DNA from: Planctomycetaceae bacterium
GTDB lineage: Bacteria; Planctomycetota; Planctomycetia; Planctomycetales; Planctomycetaceae
Reading direction: 5' to 3'
Assembly: GCA_900299185.1 (NCBI GenBank)
Contig: OMIV01000123.1
Coordinates: 1 to 61,052, forward strand
Length of the DNA: 61,052 bases
The position numbers and the translations under genes are program-made. Of the stretch, positions 15,771 through 42,160 are shown piece after piece; the first letter of the stretch is position 1, and every line of letters begins with the position of its first letter. Below the pieces are notes generated by a model. That model was not told the DNA's origin. It saw only the letters and a program-made list of their open reading frames with translations, and did no database searches.

Positions 15771-15900
15771 TCGAACCCAGGCTCTGCCTCAAGCTCCATT
15801 ACATACGGCATCGCCAGCAGGCGGCGGGAAGAGCGGACAAAAAAGACTCGTGAGGCAGAGCCTCCGTGAGGCCGTTCCCAGGCAGAGCCTGGGAACGAGT
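15771..15900. repeat. Inverted-arm element of the CCCAGGCTCTGCCTGGG family
   Basis: The left arm (about 15771-15798) reads CGAACCCAGGCTCTGCCTC. The right arm is inverted and holds GAGGCAGAGCCTC (15852-15864) and then CCCAGGCAGAGCCTGGG (15877-15893). About 50 bp of unrelated sequence lies between. The same architecture recurs at 24499-24645 and 42001-42160. It fills most of the 335-bp gap between the VWA and dipeptidase genes, where I see no other feature. Confidence 0.85.
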
Positions 15901-22579: not shown

Positions 22580-22868
22580 CAAATTGCCTCGCGAGAGAGA
22601 AAGAGTCGGTGGCCAGCGGAACGAGGCGGGGAAGGTGATGAGTCAGACGCGGGTTTTCAACCGGGGCATTTTCAGCATCCACTGAACTTCACCGCTGAGT
22701 TTCGACCAGGCGGAAGGGGCTCCGAGTATTTCCCAAATTCTTTCCAAAATGAGCTAAGGAACGGCGAGGCTCGGCGAAGTAGTCAGTGTGAGCGTCGGAT
22801 TTGGCCGCGATGAGAACAGCCACGACGACCAGTTGCAGCACTTCAAACCACTGCTTTGGAGCATTCCC

Positions 22869-23684
22869 ATGATGACATCCATGATGAAGAAAGCCGTCCT
22901 TAGTTCTGCCGGGCTGCTCGTGGCCGGCGGCTTTGTGTTTGGTCGCGACCTGTGGAGCTACGTCGCCACCGCAGGCAGCTCGGTTAAGTCGGCGGTCCGT
23001 GATTCCGTGCCGTTGGAGTTCGAACTCAAGCGTGCCAAAGAACTGCTGACCTCCATCGACCCCGAGATGAACCGCGCGAAGAAGCTGGTCGTCGAGCAAC
23101 AAGTTGAGATCGAAGACATTCAGAAGAAGCTCGCGCTCCGAGCCGACAACGTTGCCGAGCACCGCTTGGCGGTGATGACTCGATCCGAGCAGCTCAAGTC
23201 CGGCAAGGACACCTTCTTGATTTCGAACCAAACCTATTCCGCGACGCAATTGACCGACGATTTGAAGAAGCGTTTCGAGACCTTGAAGGTTGTCGAAGCG
23301 ACGATGCAAGAAGAGCAGAAGCTGCTGGACCGTAAGAAGGAAGCCATGCAGGCCAATCTGTCCAAGCTGGAGATGATGAAGGGCGCGAAGGACGACCTCA
23401 GTCGGCAGATCGAGATCCTGCAAGCCCGGCTCGAAAAGGTTCGAGCTACCGAAGAAGTGAAGAACATTCGCGTCGATGATTCGGAGTTCAACAGCGTCCG
23501 CGCTCTCGTTGATCAGCTCGATAAGCAACTCAAGGTGCGTGAGCGAGTGGCTGATGCCGAGTCGCGTCCCAGCGAAGGCGGTTTGATTCCCGTTGAAGAA
23601 AAAGTCTCCGCCAAAGGACTGCTCGATGAAGTCGATGCGCACCTAGGCGGCAAATCGAAGACAGCAGAGATCGCAGCAAACTAA
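22869..23684 (+). CDS. Membrane-anchored coiled-coil protein, unknown function
   Basis: A 271-residue protein not assigned to a named family. It has a short N-terminal hydrophobic anchor or signal (KKAVLSSAGLLVAGGFVFG) and then about 200 residues of nearly continuous coiled coil rich in Lys, Glu and Leu (for example LEFELKRAKELLTSIDPEMN and KLEMMKGAKDDLSRQIEILQ). The general look recalls PspA/IM30-like or other envelope scaffold proteins, but no family motif proves that. ATG 22869 has GGAG seven bases upstream; an adjacent ATG at 22872 is also possible. It is first in a same-strand run with an FHA-like protein, a Ser/Thr kinase and another membrane protein. Confidence 0.8.
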   Translation: MMTSMMKKAVLSSAGLLVAGGFVFGRDLWSYVATAGSSVKSAVRDSVPLEFELKRAKELLTSIDPEMNRAKKLVVEQQVEIEDIQKKLALRADNVAEHRLAVMTRSEQLKSGKDTFLISNQTYSATQLTDDLKKRFETLKVVEATMQEEQKLLDRKKEAMQANLSKLEMMKGAKDDLSRQIEILQARLEKVRATEEVKNIRVDDSEFNSVRALVDQLDKQLKVRERVADAESRPSEGGLIPVEEKVSAKGLLDEVDAHLGGKSKTAEIAAN

Positions 23685-23817
23685 GGTGGGTTCGCTGTGG
23701 TTGTTGTCCCGCCAGAGAGACGGACGAGGCCGGCGTGTCGAATGTGCTTTCTAAGTTCAATCCGTCACATTGGTCTGGTTCGTCTCTCTCATCTTCGCTG
23801 GCTCAGAGGATGCTTCG

Positions 23818-24441
23818 ATGTCGGGTCATGCCGCTCTCGCGACTCGTTGGATCTTGTGGATCGATGGAGTCGGCGCGTTCCTGATGCTGCTGTCCGAAGA
23901 AGTTTTGGTCGGACGAATGAACTCAACGACGAATCCTCCGTTCGACGACGCGGACATTTCATGGATGGGCAACCTCTCGCGACGCCACCTGACGTTGCGA
24001 CGGACCGGCGATGACTATGTCGTGCAACCGCTCGCGCGGACGAGTTTGCAAGGTCGAGTCATCACAGAACCGACCTGGCTTCCCAGTCCCTGCGAGCTGT
24101 TGCTGAACGATTCAGTGCGACTGAAGTTTGAACTTTGCTCGCCACTGAGTGCGTCGGCTCGAATTGAAGTACTGAGCAATCACCGAGGACGTTGGCCGGT
24201 CCAAGGAATCATCCTGATGGCCGACACGTGCTTGCTGGGAGCTGGTCCTGAAAACCATATCCGCTGTCCAAGTTGGCCCAGCCAATTGGTGCTGGTTCGA
24301 CGCGACGGAGGATTGGCTATCAAGTCCCGAGAAACATTGACCATCAACAACTCACCTCGCAGTGGCTGGGGGAGTTTGAGTCACGATCAGACGGTGTCAG
24401 GCGAGGGGTTCCGCATGCGACTGGAAGAACTAAAGCCGTGA
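23818..24441 (+). CDS. FHA-like domain protein
   Basis: A 207-residue protein that resembles a degenerate forkhead-associated module. After a first strand (RWILWIDGVGAFLMLL) come EEVLVGRM, where FHA domains have the GR turn, then ADISWMGNLSRRHLTLRRTGDDYVVQP, which matches the SRxH phosphothreonine-binding loop. A later LNDSVRLKF matches the conserved xxDxIxLxF strand. A second, weaker repeat may follow (QGIILMADTCLLGAGPENHIRCPS...QLVLVRRDGGLAIKS). FHA domains bind phosphothreonine, and a Ser/Thr kinase gene follows 261 bp downstream, which supports the call. GAGG lies upstream of ATG 23818; a longer frame from 23770 is less likely. No enzyme domain is fused to it. Confidence 0.65.
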   Translation: MSGHAALATRWILWIDGVGAFLMLLSEEVLVGRMNSTTNPPFDDADISWMGNLSRRHLTLRRTGDDYVVQPLARTSLQGRVITEPTWLPSPCELLLNDSVRLKFELCSPLSASARIEVLSNHRGRWPVQGIILMADTCLLGAGPENHIRCPSWPSQLVLVRRDGGLAIKSRETLTINNSPRSGWGSLSHDQTVSGEGFRMRLEELKP

Positions 24442-24498
24442 AGCAAGCCGCGAATGAAAACATATCGAGCCATCTACGAAGACAAGCACGATGCATTC

Positions 24499-24645
24499 TC
24501 ACTCGTTCCCAGGCTCTGCCTGGGAATGCAAGTCCGGAGGCTCTGTCACATTCTCTCTCGGATGACAACAGAGAGCTGACTGTAGGAGAAACATGAGGCC
24601 GAGCCTCCCATGCGCTCGTCCCCAGGCAGAGCTTGGGAATGAGTG
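24499..24645. repeat. Inverted-arm element of the CCCAGGCTCTGCCTGGG family
   Basis: The left arm at about 24501-24545 contains CCCAGGCTCTGCCTGGGAA and then GGAGGCTC. The right arm at about 24598-24645 is inverted, with GAGCCTCC and CCCAGGCAGAGCTTGGGAA. The centre (about 50 bp) has its own small stem, CTCTCT with AGAGAG. It occupies most of the 261-bp gap between the FHA-like gene and the kinase gene. Confidence 0.85.
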
Positions 24646-24702
24646 GAACCTCAGTCATTCATCACAACACTTAAGGCAGCGCGATCAAGAAACGGGCAGC
24701 CG

Positions 24703-26550
24703 ATGACCTTTCGATATCCTCCCGAATCCAAGCCGCTCGACGGCTACACCATTAAGCGAGCCATCCAACGCGGTGGCTTTGGCGAGGTCTATTTCGCGCT
24801 CAGTGATGCCGGCAAAGAAGTCGCTCTGAAGCTGCTGCAAACTAATCTCGACATTGAGCTACGCGGCGTTTCGCAGTGCCTCAATCTCAAGCATCCCAAC
24901 TTGCTGACGCTCTTCGACGTCAAACAAAACTCGTCGGGCGAGCATTGGGTGGTGATGGAATACATGGCGGGACAGACGCTTGATGCAGTCTTGGCCGCTC
25001 AGCCAGCAGGACTGCCGATCGCTCAAGTGGAGCAGCTCTTACAGGGCATTGCCGACGGGGTCAGCTACCTGCACGGACAAGGCTTGGTTCATCGCGACCT
25101 CAACCCCGCCAACATCTACGTCGAGAACGGCCTCGTGAAGATTGGCGATGTCGGACTGTCGAAGTTCATTTCAGTAAGCCACCGCAGCGGGCACACCGAA
25201 AGCGTCGGTACGGTTTATTACATGGCTCCCGAGATTGCTCATGGTCGTTACGGCCATGAGATCGACGTCTACGCGCTGGGAGTGATTCTGTTCGAGATGT
25301 TGACCGGCAAGGTGCCATTTGAAGGCGAGACCACCGGCGAGATCTTGATGAAGCAACTCACACAACCGCCGGACTTGTCGTCACTGCAACCGAAGCTGCG
25401 GCCCGTCTTGCAACGAGCGTTGGCCAAAGATCCGGCTCACCGCACACCGTCGGCACAAGCACTCGTCGCAGAGTTTCGCGCGGCGAGCAAACCTGTAGTT
25501 CCCATTCCGGTGACCTTGGTGGCTTCAGTGCCCTCGGATTCCAAGCCAGAACCAGTGCCGGTCTTCGTCCAGCCGTCTGACTGCTTCTTGCCGGACACTG
25601 TTACAGGCACGTCGTCGAACGGTAACTCGTTCTTGCAATGGATCGTCGACAGACCGGTGCTGGCCGTTCTGGGTCTCGCTGTCCCGTGGTTCTATCTCAT
25701 TGCCTTCACGACCCGCTTCGCCGGAATGCCACGCGCCCTGGTTCCAACGATCGCTGGAGCCTGCTTGCTTTTGTCCTTCATCATTGTGCGAATCATTACA
25801 GCGATTGTACGTGGCACCTTTCTGAGTCCACCGCGTGAAGCAATGCAATCAGTCCGTCAGCGATCCAAAACCGACGACCGCGTTCATCGACTCAACGAGG
25901 AATATCACCGTTATCGAGGCCCCGAGACTCGGGAGCTCGATCTGCTGGATCGACTGGCTGAGATGACCGGATCGATGGCGGTCGCGGCGCTGTGCTCGGC
26001 GTTGATCGCGTTGGCGTTGTGGTGGTTGAACGCCTTTGTGAAGTCACCGTCTCAAGCGACGTTCTTTGCAATTGGCACCACGCTGGGAAGTTGGGCGGCC
26101 ATCATGCCTGCCAAGCTCTGGGAAGGTCGTGGCCGAGATGGTGTCGCTCGGCGAATAGCAACCATGACGTTGGGAGCGATCGCCGGCGCCACGCTCTTTG
26201 CGATGTCAAACGTCCTAAAGATCGACATGCACATTGAGTGTGCCGAGCACGTCGCGGCGTCTTGGGCTCCGACGTTTCAGATGTCGCGAGTCTCGGCGAT
26301 GGCCCTGCAGGGTTACTCGATCTTCTTCGCCGCGCTGCTGTTGGCTCGACGTTGGTGGTATCGAGTTGATGCTTATCGCGACAAACGCCTGAGCTTCGTG
26401 TCGATCATCATCACCACGGGCGCAGCTTTTGTGCTCTCGCTGGTGACGAGATTCCCCACCGATTGGGCCGTGATGTGGGGACTAACCATGTCAGCCGTTT
26501 CGCAATTGGCTGCAGTCTGGATTCCGACTCCCGAACGACAACGCAGCTAA
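24703..26550 (+). CDS. Ser/Thr protein kinase with about eight C-terminal membrane spans
   Basis: A 615-residue Hanks-type kinase. The catalytic domain covers about residues 14-265: a Gly-rich loop GGFGEVYFA, Lys43 in VALKLL, a catalytic loop HRDLNPAN (130-137), an activation segment starting DVG (149-151) in place of DFG, and MAPE for the APE motif. The usual Lys of HRDLKPxN is Asn134 here. Other key residues (Lys43, Asp132, Asn137, Asp149) are kept, so activity is possible but not certain. The C-terminal half has about eight hydrophobic spans, with a charged loop (about 395-440) between spans two and three. PASTA or other sensor repeats are absent. The neighbouring FHA-like protein could recognise its products. 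ATG 24703 has no strong ribosome binding site; a frame from 24643 begins inside a repeat. Confidence 0.9.
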   Translation: MTFRYPPESKPLDGYTIKRAIQRGGFGEVYFALSDAGKEVALKLLQTNLDIELRGVSQCLNLKHPNLLTLFDVKQNSSGEHWVVMEYMAGQTLDAVLAAQPAGLPIAQVEQLLQGIADGVSYLHGQGLVHRDLNPANIYVENGLVKIGDVGLSKFISVSHRSGHTESVGTVYYMAPEIAHGRYGHEIDVYALGVILFEMLTGKVPFEGETTGEILMKQLTQPPDLSSLQPKLRPVLQRALAKDPAHRTPSAQALVAEFRAASKPVVPIPVTLVASVPSDSKPEPVPVFVQPSDCFLPDTVTGTSSNGNSFLQWIVDRPVLAVLGLAVPWFYLIAFTTRFAGMPRALVPTIAGACLLLSFIIVRIITAIVRGTFLSPPREAMQSVRQRSKTDDRVHRLNEEYHRYRGPETRELDLLDRLAEMTGSMAVAALCSALIALALWWLNAFVKSPSQATFFAIGTTLGSWAAIMPAKLWEGRGRDGVARRIATMTLGAIAGATLFAMSNVLKIDMHIECAEHVAASWAPTFQMSRVSAMALQGYSIFFAALLLARRWWYRVDAYRDKRLSFVSIIITTGAAFVLSLVTRFPTDWAVMWGLTMSAVSQLAAVWIPTPERQRS

Positions 26551-26596
26551 GTCGACAAGTCGGACAGGGCCGCGTCTGCTTTAGAAAGTCATCAGC

Positions 26597-27427
26597 ATGT
26601 CGTCGCTTCAACCATCATTCGCTTTCGTCTTGATCGCTCTCGCGCTGATAGGCGGACTGGTGTTCGGGCTCATTTGGGGCTTGATGAAGTTGTCGTCGAG
26701 GACAGTTCAACCTCAGCGTTCATCGTCTCAAAGTTCCGCGCGACCGATGCTGATCATGGCCACTTCGTTTGCATTCGGCATCGCGTTGTTCCTGTCTCTG
26801 ACTCTCGTCTCAGTCAGGACGAGCGTGTCGACCGTGCAATCGTCGATGGTCTCTGAGACAAAGCAAAAAGCACAACGCACTCCCACCAGCGAACCACCGG
26901 CGGAAGCGTTGATACCGATTAAGGAAGACTCATCCGAAGCACTGCCCGAATGGGTCAACTTAGAGCACCAGACCTTGAAGACCGGTGAAGTTCCCACCGA
27001 GCTGCTGGTGACAAAAAGCAGCGAGTGCCCAACGGTGGCGGAAGCCGAAACGGAAGCGCTCTCGAAAGCCAAGCAAGAATTGTTGAAGCGGCTCGCTGCG
27101 AAGTATCCCGGCATCGACACGTGGAACATGCCGCTTTCATTGATCAACGACCTCTCGAAGCAGCAGTATCACGTTCAGTTCAAGCTTCGCAATTTCGGAT
27201 CGTTCCAGGACACGATGTTCGTGGCCTACGTCCAATACATGGACTCGCCCGAAGTTCGTGAGCGAGTCGTTGAAGAATGGGAGCAGATCAATCTCAACTC
27301 TCGTTTGCTCCAAGTGGCCGGCGTCTTTGGAGCGTCAGTTATCGGGCTCAGCACGCTATCGATCGCGCTCCGCTGGAGTTCGCGTTACAGGAAGTCACAC
27401 CAAGCTCAACTGACCGAAGTCGCCTAG
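26597..27427 (+). CDS. Three-span membrane protein, unknown function
   Basis: A 276-residue protein without a recognised family. Hydrophobic spans lie at about residues 7-30 (FAFVLIALALIGGLVFGLIW), 50-70 (MLIMATSFAFGIALFLSLTL) and 238-260 (LLQVAGVFGASVIGLSTLSI). The region between spans two and three (about 75-235) is probably extracytoplasmic and forms one globular domain: PEWVNLEHQTL, a helical ETEALSKAKQELLKRLAAKYP and a beta-rich QYHVQFKLRNFGSFQDTMFVAY. It follows the kinase gene after 46 bp on the same strand and is likely cotranscribed. A role as a partner, sensor or target of the kinase is inference from position only. Confidence 0.8.
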   Translation: MSSLQPSFAFVLIALALIGGLVFGLIWGLMKLSSRTVQPQRSSSQSSARPMLIMATSFAFGIALFLSLTLVSVRTSVSTVQSSMVSETKQKAQRTPTSEPPAEALIPIKEDSSEALPEWVNLEHQTLKTGEVPTELLVTKSSECPTVAEAETEALSKAKQELLKRLAAKYPGIDTWNMPLSLINDLSKQQYHVQFKLRNFGSFQDTMFVAYVQYMDSPEVRERVVEEWEQINLNSRLLQVAGVFGASVIGLSTLSIALRWSSRYRKSHQAQLTEVA

Positions 27428-42000: not shown

Positions 42001-42160
42001 CACTCGTTCCCAAGCTCTGCTTGGGAACGCACGATCGGGAAGCTCTGCTTCCCGTCTGGTTCAGTTGCGGCCCGCCTTATTGATTGATGGCCCTCGACGA
42101 CTCGTCCCGGCAAGCAGAGCTTGCCGACACCGCGTTCCCAGCAGAGCTTGGGAACGAGTG
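42001..42160. repeat. Inverted-arm element of the CCCAGGCTCTGCCTGGG family
   Basis: The left arm has CCCAAGCTCTGCTTGGG (42009-42025) and GGGAAGCTCTGCTTCCC (42038-42054). The right arm, inverted, has CGGCAAGCAGAGCTTGCCG (about 42108-42126) and CCCAGCAGAGCTTGGG (about 42137-42152). About 50 bp separate them. A single arm of the CTCCGTCG family follows at 42228-42255. Together these fill the gap between the macroglobulin and ABC exporter genes. Confidence 0.85.

Follow-up and report, generated by a model that had tools for sequence, protein, structure and literature searches.

A conserved planctomycete gene cluster as the probable membrane and cytoplasmic part of an ECF sigma factor module under kinase control

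The window analyzed here is the whole 61,052-nucleotide stretch at positions 1 to 61,052 of contig OMIV01000123.1, one contig of the 7.87-Mb, 383-contig genome of a Planctomycetaceae bacterium (GCA_900299185.1). Between positions 22,869 and 27,427 it carries a cluster of four genes, named g1 to g4, which encode a coiled-coil protein, a protein related to FHA domains, a serine/threonine (Ser/Thr) kinase with a membrane tail, and a three-span membrane protein. A first-pass annotation had placed four plus-strand genes in a row, and all four open reading frames (ORFs) were recovered there. The cluster is probably the membrane and cytoplasmic half of an envelope-sensing, kinase-controlled module with an extracytoplasmic function (ECF) sigma factor, and its likely output is transcription. 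The gene set and its order are conserved among relatives, a sigma gene is linked to it in many lineages, and the region upstream of g1 carries a strand-specific promoter-like motif whose version differs by the type of sigma factor.

Conservation of the gene order

The taxonomic order was surveyed in 120 genomes by single-sequence searches for g1, g2, and g4, which were found in 115, 84, and 45 genomes, respectively. Sixty regions around g1 were fetched, hand-picked for genus diversity among the g1 matches, and the comparison was based on 57 loci, with the window included and four paralogous clusters excluded; contig ends account for some of the absent genes in this set. The kinase gene g3 occurred in 56, g4 in 53, and g2 in 43 of these loci. 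The complete and ordered arrangement g1-g2-g3-g4 was present in 40/57 loci, and another 13 showed g1-g3-g4 without a detected g2. The order is kept across many genera, a pattern that chance adjacency would not give. Scattering of the genes in relatives, which the first-pass annotation had named as the outcome that would speak against its cluster, was therefore rejected. Its phospho-signalling idea is partly supported: the genes form one conserved unit; the reading role assigned to the FHA-like protein is weak, and the sigma factor output and the promoter-like motif had been overlooked.

The ECF sigma factor

Among the 53 loci with g4, 29 encode an ECF sigma factor of approximately 214 residues no more than 1.2 kb beyond this gene. 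Loci found with the sigma sequence include ones from Gimesia, Planctomicrobium, Fuerstiella, Schlesneria, and Thalassoglobus. The sigma gene was first recognized by reading the ORFs downstream of g4, as BLAST clustering of the neighbours mostly gave antisense shadow ORFs. A sigma gene beside a Ser/Thr kinase gene was thus found in 29/53 loci, but not in the window genome. At a threshold of E ≤ 1e-15, the sigma factor was identified in 115 of the 120 genomes and in 47 of 47 genera, and it was single-copy in all but 6 of the 115.

Downstream of g4 in the window stands a DUF218 gene on the opposite strand and no sigma gene. The sigma gene of the window genome is unlinked and lies on another contig (C270:6185-6766), where one strong match of 215 bits was 57% identical to the query sigma and the next ECF factor scored 37 bits. 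The protein matched Sigma70_r2 with 57.4 bits (cut-off 24) and TIGR02937 with 68 bits (cut-off 42.9), while its Sigma70_r4_2 score of 18 bits was below the cut-off of 25.7. In the other genome of the genus the sigma gene is also found on a contig different from that of g1, and the two sigma factors are 63% identical. The C270 stretch and the sister stretch share no ORF beyond the sigma gene, an antisense shadow aside. The unlinked sigma gene of the sister genome (G119:C80:33838-34434) contains one in-frame TAG, possibly the mark of a decaying copy or a sequencing error.

An acidic ED pair at the presumed place of region 2.2 (SEDVVQ, AEDVVQ, and similar; placement by eye) occurred in 93 of 97 collected sigma factors, which thus do not show the loss of the acidic DAED motif that characterizes the ECF43 type. 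The linker motif R-x-A-S-S-x-x-R-S-x-E was present in 85/97 collected sequences, some of them non-orthologous, and its first serine was invariant in 30 of 30 aligned sigma factors. Judged by this sequence pattern, the linker is the best candidate phosphorylation site, and a structural role is equally possible.

Further downstream of the sigma gene, a protein of approximately 840-965 residues, by eye exported and with helical repeats, was encoded in seven loci (L108, L110, L116, L121, L134, L143, and L156), and an eighth copy was placed elsewhere (L136).

Deep lineages and paralogous clusters

Of 246 genomes of the phylum, 60 matched the g1 profile, and 16 of these belong to the same order or class. 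A deep set of 20 regions was hand-chosen from the matches, 4 in the same class and 16 in other parts of the phylum; it contained a kinase matching the g3 profile in 18 loci, a g2-profile protein in 17, and an ECF sigma factor matching the sigma profile in 17. Two gene orders were found, g1-g2-kinase-g4-sigma and g2-kinase-sigma-g1, and Pirellulales contigs are among the loci that carry the whole set. In the second order, a small cysteine-containing protein is encoded between sigma and g1 in several loci, and one of the two scanned passes the zf-HC2 cut-off. In the first order, most of the deep-branching sigma factors have a C-terminal extension that is similar and likewise contains cysteines. 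An anti-sigma-like role of this domain is possible. The same cysteine domain (SCP...FH...C.FC.A.L.DL) was observed as a separate gene between sigma and g1 in L265, L271, L272, L273, L275, and L277 and fused to the sigma C-terminus in L112, L130, L263, L264, L266, L267, L269, and L276; the zf-HC2 match in L265 covers a different region of the protein.

A paralogous second cluster, whose FHA-like, kinase, and g4 proteins are longer, occurred in four genomes (L112, L130, L132, and L152), all of which have a second sigma factor and a different promoter version. A second g2-like gene was found in six genomes; four of these have a second sigma factor, which adjoins the second cluster in two.

The promoter-like motif

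Searching the g1 upstream regions for spaced word pairs yielded CAAGAT-N13-GCGAAT. The exact pattern CAAGA-N14-GCGAA occurred in 31 of 77 non-redundant g1 upstream regions and in 0/319 control segments taken away from g1 (5/385 when the segments could contain the site itself). A position weight matrix scored above the 99th percentile of the controls in 71/77 regions and in 0/77 on the reverse strand, with sites 69-205 bases before the g1 start. Half-and-half cross-validation recovered 31-37 of the 38-39 held-out regions. The six motif-less regions comprised the four paralogous clusters, L145, and L258.

The downstream block differed by sigma type. GCGAAKNAC (K = G/T) was present in 40/71 clusters with the short sigma factor and in none of the 11 paralogous and deep clusters, whereas CGACYACC (Y = C/T) took the same place in 5 of the 11 (2/4 of the paralogous ones) and in 0/71 short-sigma clusters. 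These 11 form a mixed "long-sigma" set of four paralogous clusters, with the sigma gene adjacent in only two and the second sigma on another contig in the other two, and seven deep loci, including L259, whose sigma factor is short and lacks the extension. As the four paralogous clusters share their genomes with short-sigma clusters, genome relatedness alone fails to explain the difference in motif.

The promoter-like site of the window operon (positions 22,754-22,784, plus strand) is a weak copy of the family motif with the downstream block kept as GCGAAG. It scored 19.0 against a 99th percentile of 12.8 for genomic controls, with the window being part of the training set, and passed three of four held-out tests.

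A strict scan of 170 genomes returned 37 sites in 31 genomes and none for the reversed pattern; a looser pattern gave five reversed-pattern matches in 120 genomes. By coordinates, 19 of the 37 strict sites lie at g1, 13 elsewhere, and 5 in genomes without a placed g1. Among 20 hand-picked regions with looser-pattern sites away from g1, 18 scored at least 13.2 and two scored 6.0 and 6.8. Strict sites away from g1 stand before genes for, among others, a second kinase, SecA, membrane proteins of the TM2 and DUF6677 types, and DUF58. A signal peptidase gene and the gene of an NfeD-type protease are preceded by looser sites.

The four proteins of the cluster

The coiled-coil protein g1 (positions 22,869-23,684, plus strand; 271 residues) lies inside an ORF that opens at 22,788. 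Its N-terminus is hydrophobic, and in the structural model a hydrophobic helix is followed by another helix and by a long helical hairpin with a small beta tip (mean predicted local distance difference test, pLDDT, 76.5; low in the N-terminal helices). No family passed the cut-off in Pfam, NCBIfam, or PHROGs. The first-pass annotation had described an anchored coiled-coil scaffold. The helical hairpin agrees with the predicted structure, and the anchor is mixed, as a hydropathy peak was present in 45 of the 57 members of the locus set and no peak exceeded the threshold in the window copy.

The second gene, g2 (positions 23,770-24,441, plus strand), encodes 223 residues, by eye perhaps with two FHA-like halves. 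The window protein matched the FHA profile PF00498 with 17.8 bits, under the Pfam cut-off of 20.7; at E ≤ 0.01 the profile was matched by 24 of 32 aligned g2 members, the window included, with a best value of 7e-10. The FHA relationship is thus upheld by profile in most of the aligned members. A sequence search against solved structures with g2 returned nothing at E ≤ 5. In FHA domains, the arginine after the glycine of the GR motif binds phosphothreonine, and the serine and histidine of SRxH are likewise canonical. The window protein keeps all three residues. Among the 32 aligned members, the position that follows the glycine in the first FHA motif held Arg in 5, Gly in 18, Ala in 5, Ser in 3, and Asn in 1, and the SRxH serine and histidine were present in 25 and 30. 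Moreover, g2 was undetected in 13 of the 53 loci carrying g3 and g4. The gap between g1 and g3 is shorter than 250 bases in 7 of these 13, so the FHA gene appears to be an optional part; the gaps of the other six could conceal a diverged gene. The earlier statement that the FHA protein reads threonine phosphorylation is therefore weak, with the arginine kept in the window, absent in 27/32 members, and the gene dispensable. From these residues, an adaptor role suits g2 better than that of an established reader of phosphothreonine.

The kinase gene g3 spans positions 24,643-26,550 on the plus strand, and an ATG near 24,703, read from the sequence, may be the true start. The kinase domain (positions 24,745-25,464, plus strand) matched PF00069 with 157.2 bits, and the protein was identified as a Hanks-type kinase with 154.2 bits against a cut-off of 31.7. 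The catalytic motif of the window protein is HRDLNPAN, and DVG replaces DFG. HxDxxxxN was present in 50 of 52 family members, 38 of which have DVG for DFG. The kinase had been credited with about eight membrane spans; a multi-span tail was borne out by hydropathy, with five peaks for the window protein and, in 46/50 members, 4-7 peaks beyond the kinase domain, and eight spans are possible. The Ser/Thr kinase profile had 62 matches in the window genome, some being fragments of one protein. A small protein of approximately 74-94 residues, hydrophobic by eye, is encoded upstream of g3 in eight loci (L114, L118, L119, L120, L134, L136, L153, and L157), with three tandem copies in L114; the L120 copy had no Pfam match.

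The fourth gene, g4 (positions 26,597-27,427, plus strand), encodes a membrane protein with three hydropathy peaks, in line with the three spans proposed earlier. Between the second and third peak lies a soluble alpha/beta domain of LPP20/Tip-alpha/dodecin-like predicted structure (residues 118-216; positions 26,948-27,244, plus strand), with pLDDT above 90 for residues 121-220. With three spans, the positive-inside rule as judged by eye would put the domain outside the membrane, as had been proposed. VIA-align Z values of 4-6.8 were obtained to LPP20, HP1454, Tip-alpha, BP26, and dodecin; common arrangements reach such values too. The alignment to LPP20 (5ok8) reached Z 6.8 with a root-mean-square deviation of 4.2 over 100 residues, while rows of equal Z pair membrane helices with unrelated chains. 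Any likeness to LPP20/Tip-alpha/SIMPL-like proteins would lie in this domain; g4 differs in being a membrane protein with helices flanking the domain. No family was accepted for g4, and no LPP20-family Pfam match was found at E ≤ 0.05 in 23 members.

A phage origin of the cluster was rejected, as g1, g2, and g4 had no match in PHROGs.

Relation to known systems

The envelopes of planctomycetes are unusual, and of their many kinases and ECF sigma factors few are tied to a defined circuit in the literature reached. Kinase-linked ECF groups of the phylum are in print, as seen in the accessible parts of PMC8999054 and PMC8103513. In that part of PMC8999054, the groups linked to Ser/Thr protein kinases (STPKs) include ECF59, ECF61, ECF62, and ECF217 with planctomycete representatives (Rhodopirellula in ECF62 and ECF217) and ECF43 with the pairs EcfP-PknT and EcfK-PknS. 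The non-ECF43 groups keep an acidic DAED-like motif, whereas EcfP does not, and the mechanism of kinase-linked ECF factors that keep this core-binding motif is described there as still open. The sigma factor in this study is of that kind, resembling the STPK-linked groups in its place beside a Ser/Thr kinase gene and the non-ECF43 groups in its acidic motif, with ECF62 and ECF217 as the candidate groups for it. It differs in its coiled-coil, FHA-like, and three-span partners and in the promoter motif, which the accessible part does not describe. The cluster is not mentioned in the accessible parts of PMC8567305 and PMC11032199, and no description of this composition or of its promoter was found in the literature reached, portions of which were partial, so that absence from print is not thereby established.

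Three responses in Rhodopirellula baltica can be set beside the unit by description, from the accessible part of PMC2754498. The ECF factor RB138 was up under heat, cold, and salt, with the kinase RB140 at 300 min; the FHA protein RB1789 is listed among the genes that each of the three stresses induced; and the ECF factor RB1790 was up under high salinity only.

The unit is widespread and mostly single-copy. Its parts are named, it comes with a candidate promoter sequence, and a natural duplicate carries a different version of that sequence. These features make the question of how a membrane kinase reaches transcription in this phylum directly testable.

Proposed mechanism and alternative explanations

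In the favoured reading, g1 and the soluble domain of g4 are probably exposed to the periplasm, where they would monitor the envelope and together gate the membrane kinase g3. The kinase would phosphorylate or otherwise switch the dedicated single-copy ECF sigma factor, with the FHA-like g2 as an adaptor that may aid g3 in most lineages. The sigma factor would then recognize the conserved motif upstream of g1 and transcribe the operon from it, in some lineages together with a few envelope and kinase genes. An extended form, which is unlikely, has a phylum-wide transmembrane complex of g1, g4, and g3 that senses the envelope and signals by phosphorylating the serines of the sigma linker between regions 2 and 4. 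If true, linker phosphorylation would be a mode of sigma switching unlike anti-sigma release or the region 2.2 mechanism of EcfP; this form would also take in the deep-lineage sigma line with its cysteine-containing anti-sigma-like domain, as a C-terminal fusion or a neighbouring gene.

Several observations weigh against the kinase-controlled sigma module. Besides the unlinked sigma gene in the window genome, the genomes without g1 and those without sigma overlap in only three of five each (P = 3.5e-4), an overlap to which assembly gaps could contribute. The acidic region 2.2 motif is kept, so the sigma factor need not be inactive when unphosphorylated, as EcfP is. Among the six genomes with a second g2-like gene, two have no second sigma factor, and a second sigma match without a second g2-like gene was found in two genomes, one match being a fragment. 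Two long g2-profile proteins of the deep loci (L264 and L271) had no FHA match in the Pfam scan, which makes the FHA part less sure in these lineages. As for the motif, its spacing differs from the textbook ECF spacing, the upstream block of the window site is degraded, and this site was missed by a strict-consensus scan allowing up to three mismatches. Stand-alone sigma genes had the motif upstream in only 2/55 non-redundant cases. It was found upstream of second-kinase orthologs in 4/30 (two at 12.8 and 13.1; 1/30 in the reverse-strand control), SecA orthologs in 2/30, and signal peptidase orthologs in 0/30, and the upstream motif test was negative for the second kinase and the signal peptidase of the window genome. 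A wide envelope or secretion regulon was therefore not kept, and the operon itself is retained as the only general target. Targets outside the operon are lineage-specific at best, and the envelope theme among them is a hint only.

It is conceivable, if doubtful, that g1 to g4 act as a post-translational switch on an envelope machine and that the sigma factor only supplies transcripts and is not the kinase target. The PpkA-Fha type VI secretion pathway consists of a membrane Ser/Thr kinase, an FHA protein, and membrane partners, a composition that the unit shares, and g1 to g4 still stand together in the 24 of 53 loci that lack an adjacent sigma gene. The unit departs from PpkA-Fha in its linked ECF sigma factor and the mostly lost FHA arginine, no secretion-machine gene is among the neighbour-family matches listed, and both gene arrangements place kinase and ECF sigma genes side by side in other orders and classes.

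A role of g1 as a PspA/Vipp1-type membrane-remodelling or scaffold protein, with the other genes merely setting its amount, is improbable. The modelled long helical hairpin after a membrane-proximal helix would suit such a protein, Vipp1 and PspA chains are among the structural matches, and g1 is found in more genomes (115/120) than g2 (84) or g4 (45). All these matches score weakly, with a best E of 5e-3, and stand among unrelated, generic coiled coils, and the Foldseek comparison with the PspA/Vipp1 fold gave E 0.017 or weaker. No PspA entry was among the best 25 of 37 Pfam families for 20 g1 orthologs, and the hydrophobic anchor of g1 is absent from PspA. PspA membership has no support past generic coiled-coil similarity. 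Least probable is that the genes serve separate processes and are neighbours through inherited synteny only. In favour of this reading, 24/53 loci have no adjacent sigma gene and 13/53 no detected FHA gene, but the set persists across classes despite its rearranged order and is duplicated in four genomes, each with a second sigma factor and a different promoter version.

Repeats in the window

A palindromic 23-base repeat, TTCCCAGGCTCTGCCTGGGAATG, and its close copies were observed at positions 24,506-24,528 (plus), 24,617-24,639 (minus), 15,873-15,895 (minus), and 42,007-42,029 (plus), with none in 100 shuffles. Two of the copies form an inverted pair in the gap between g2 and g3.

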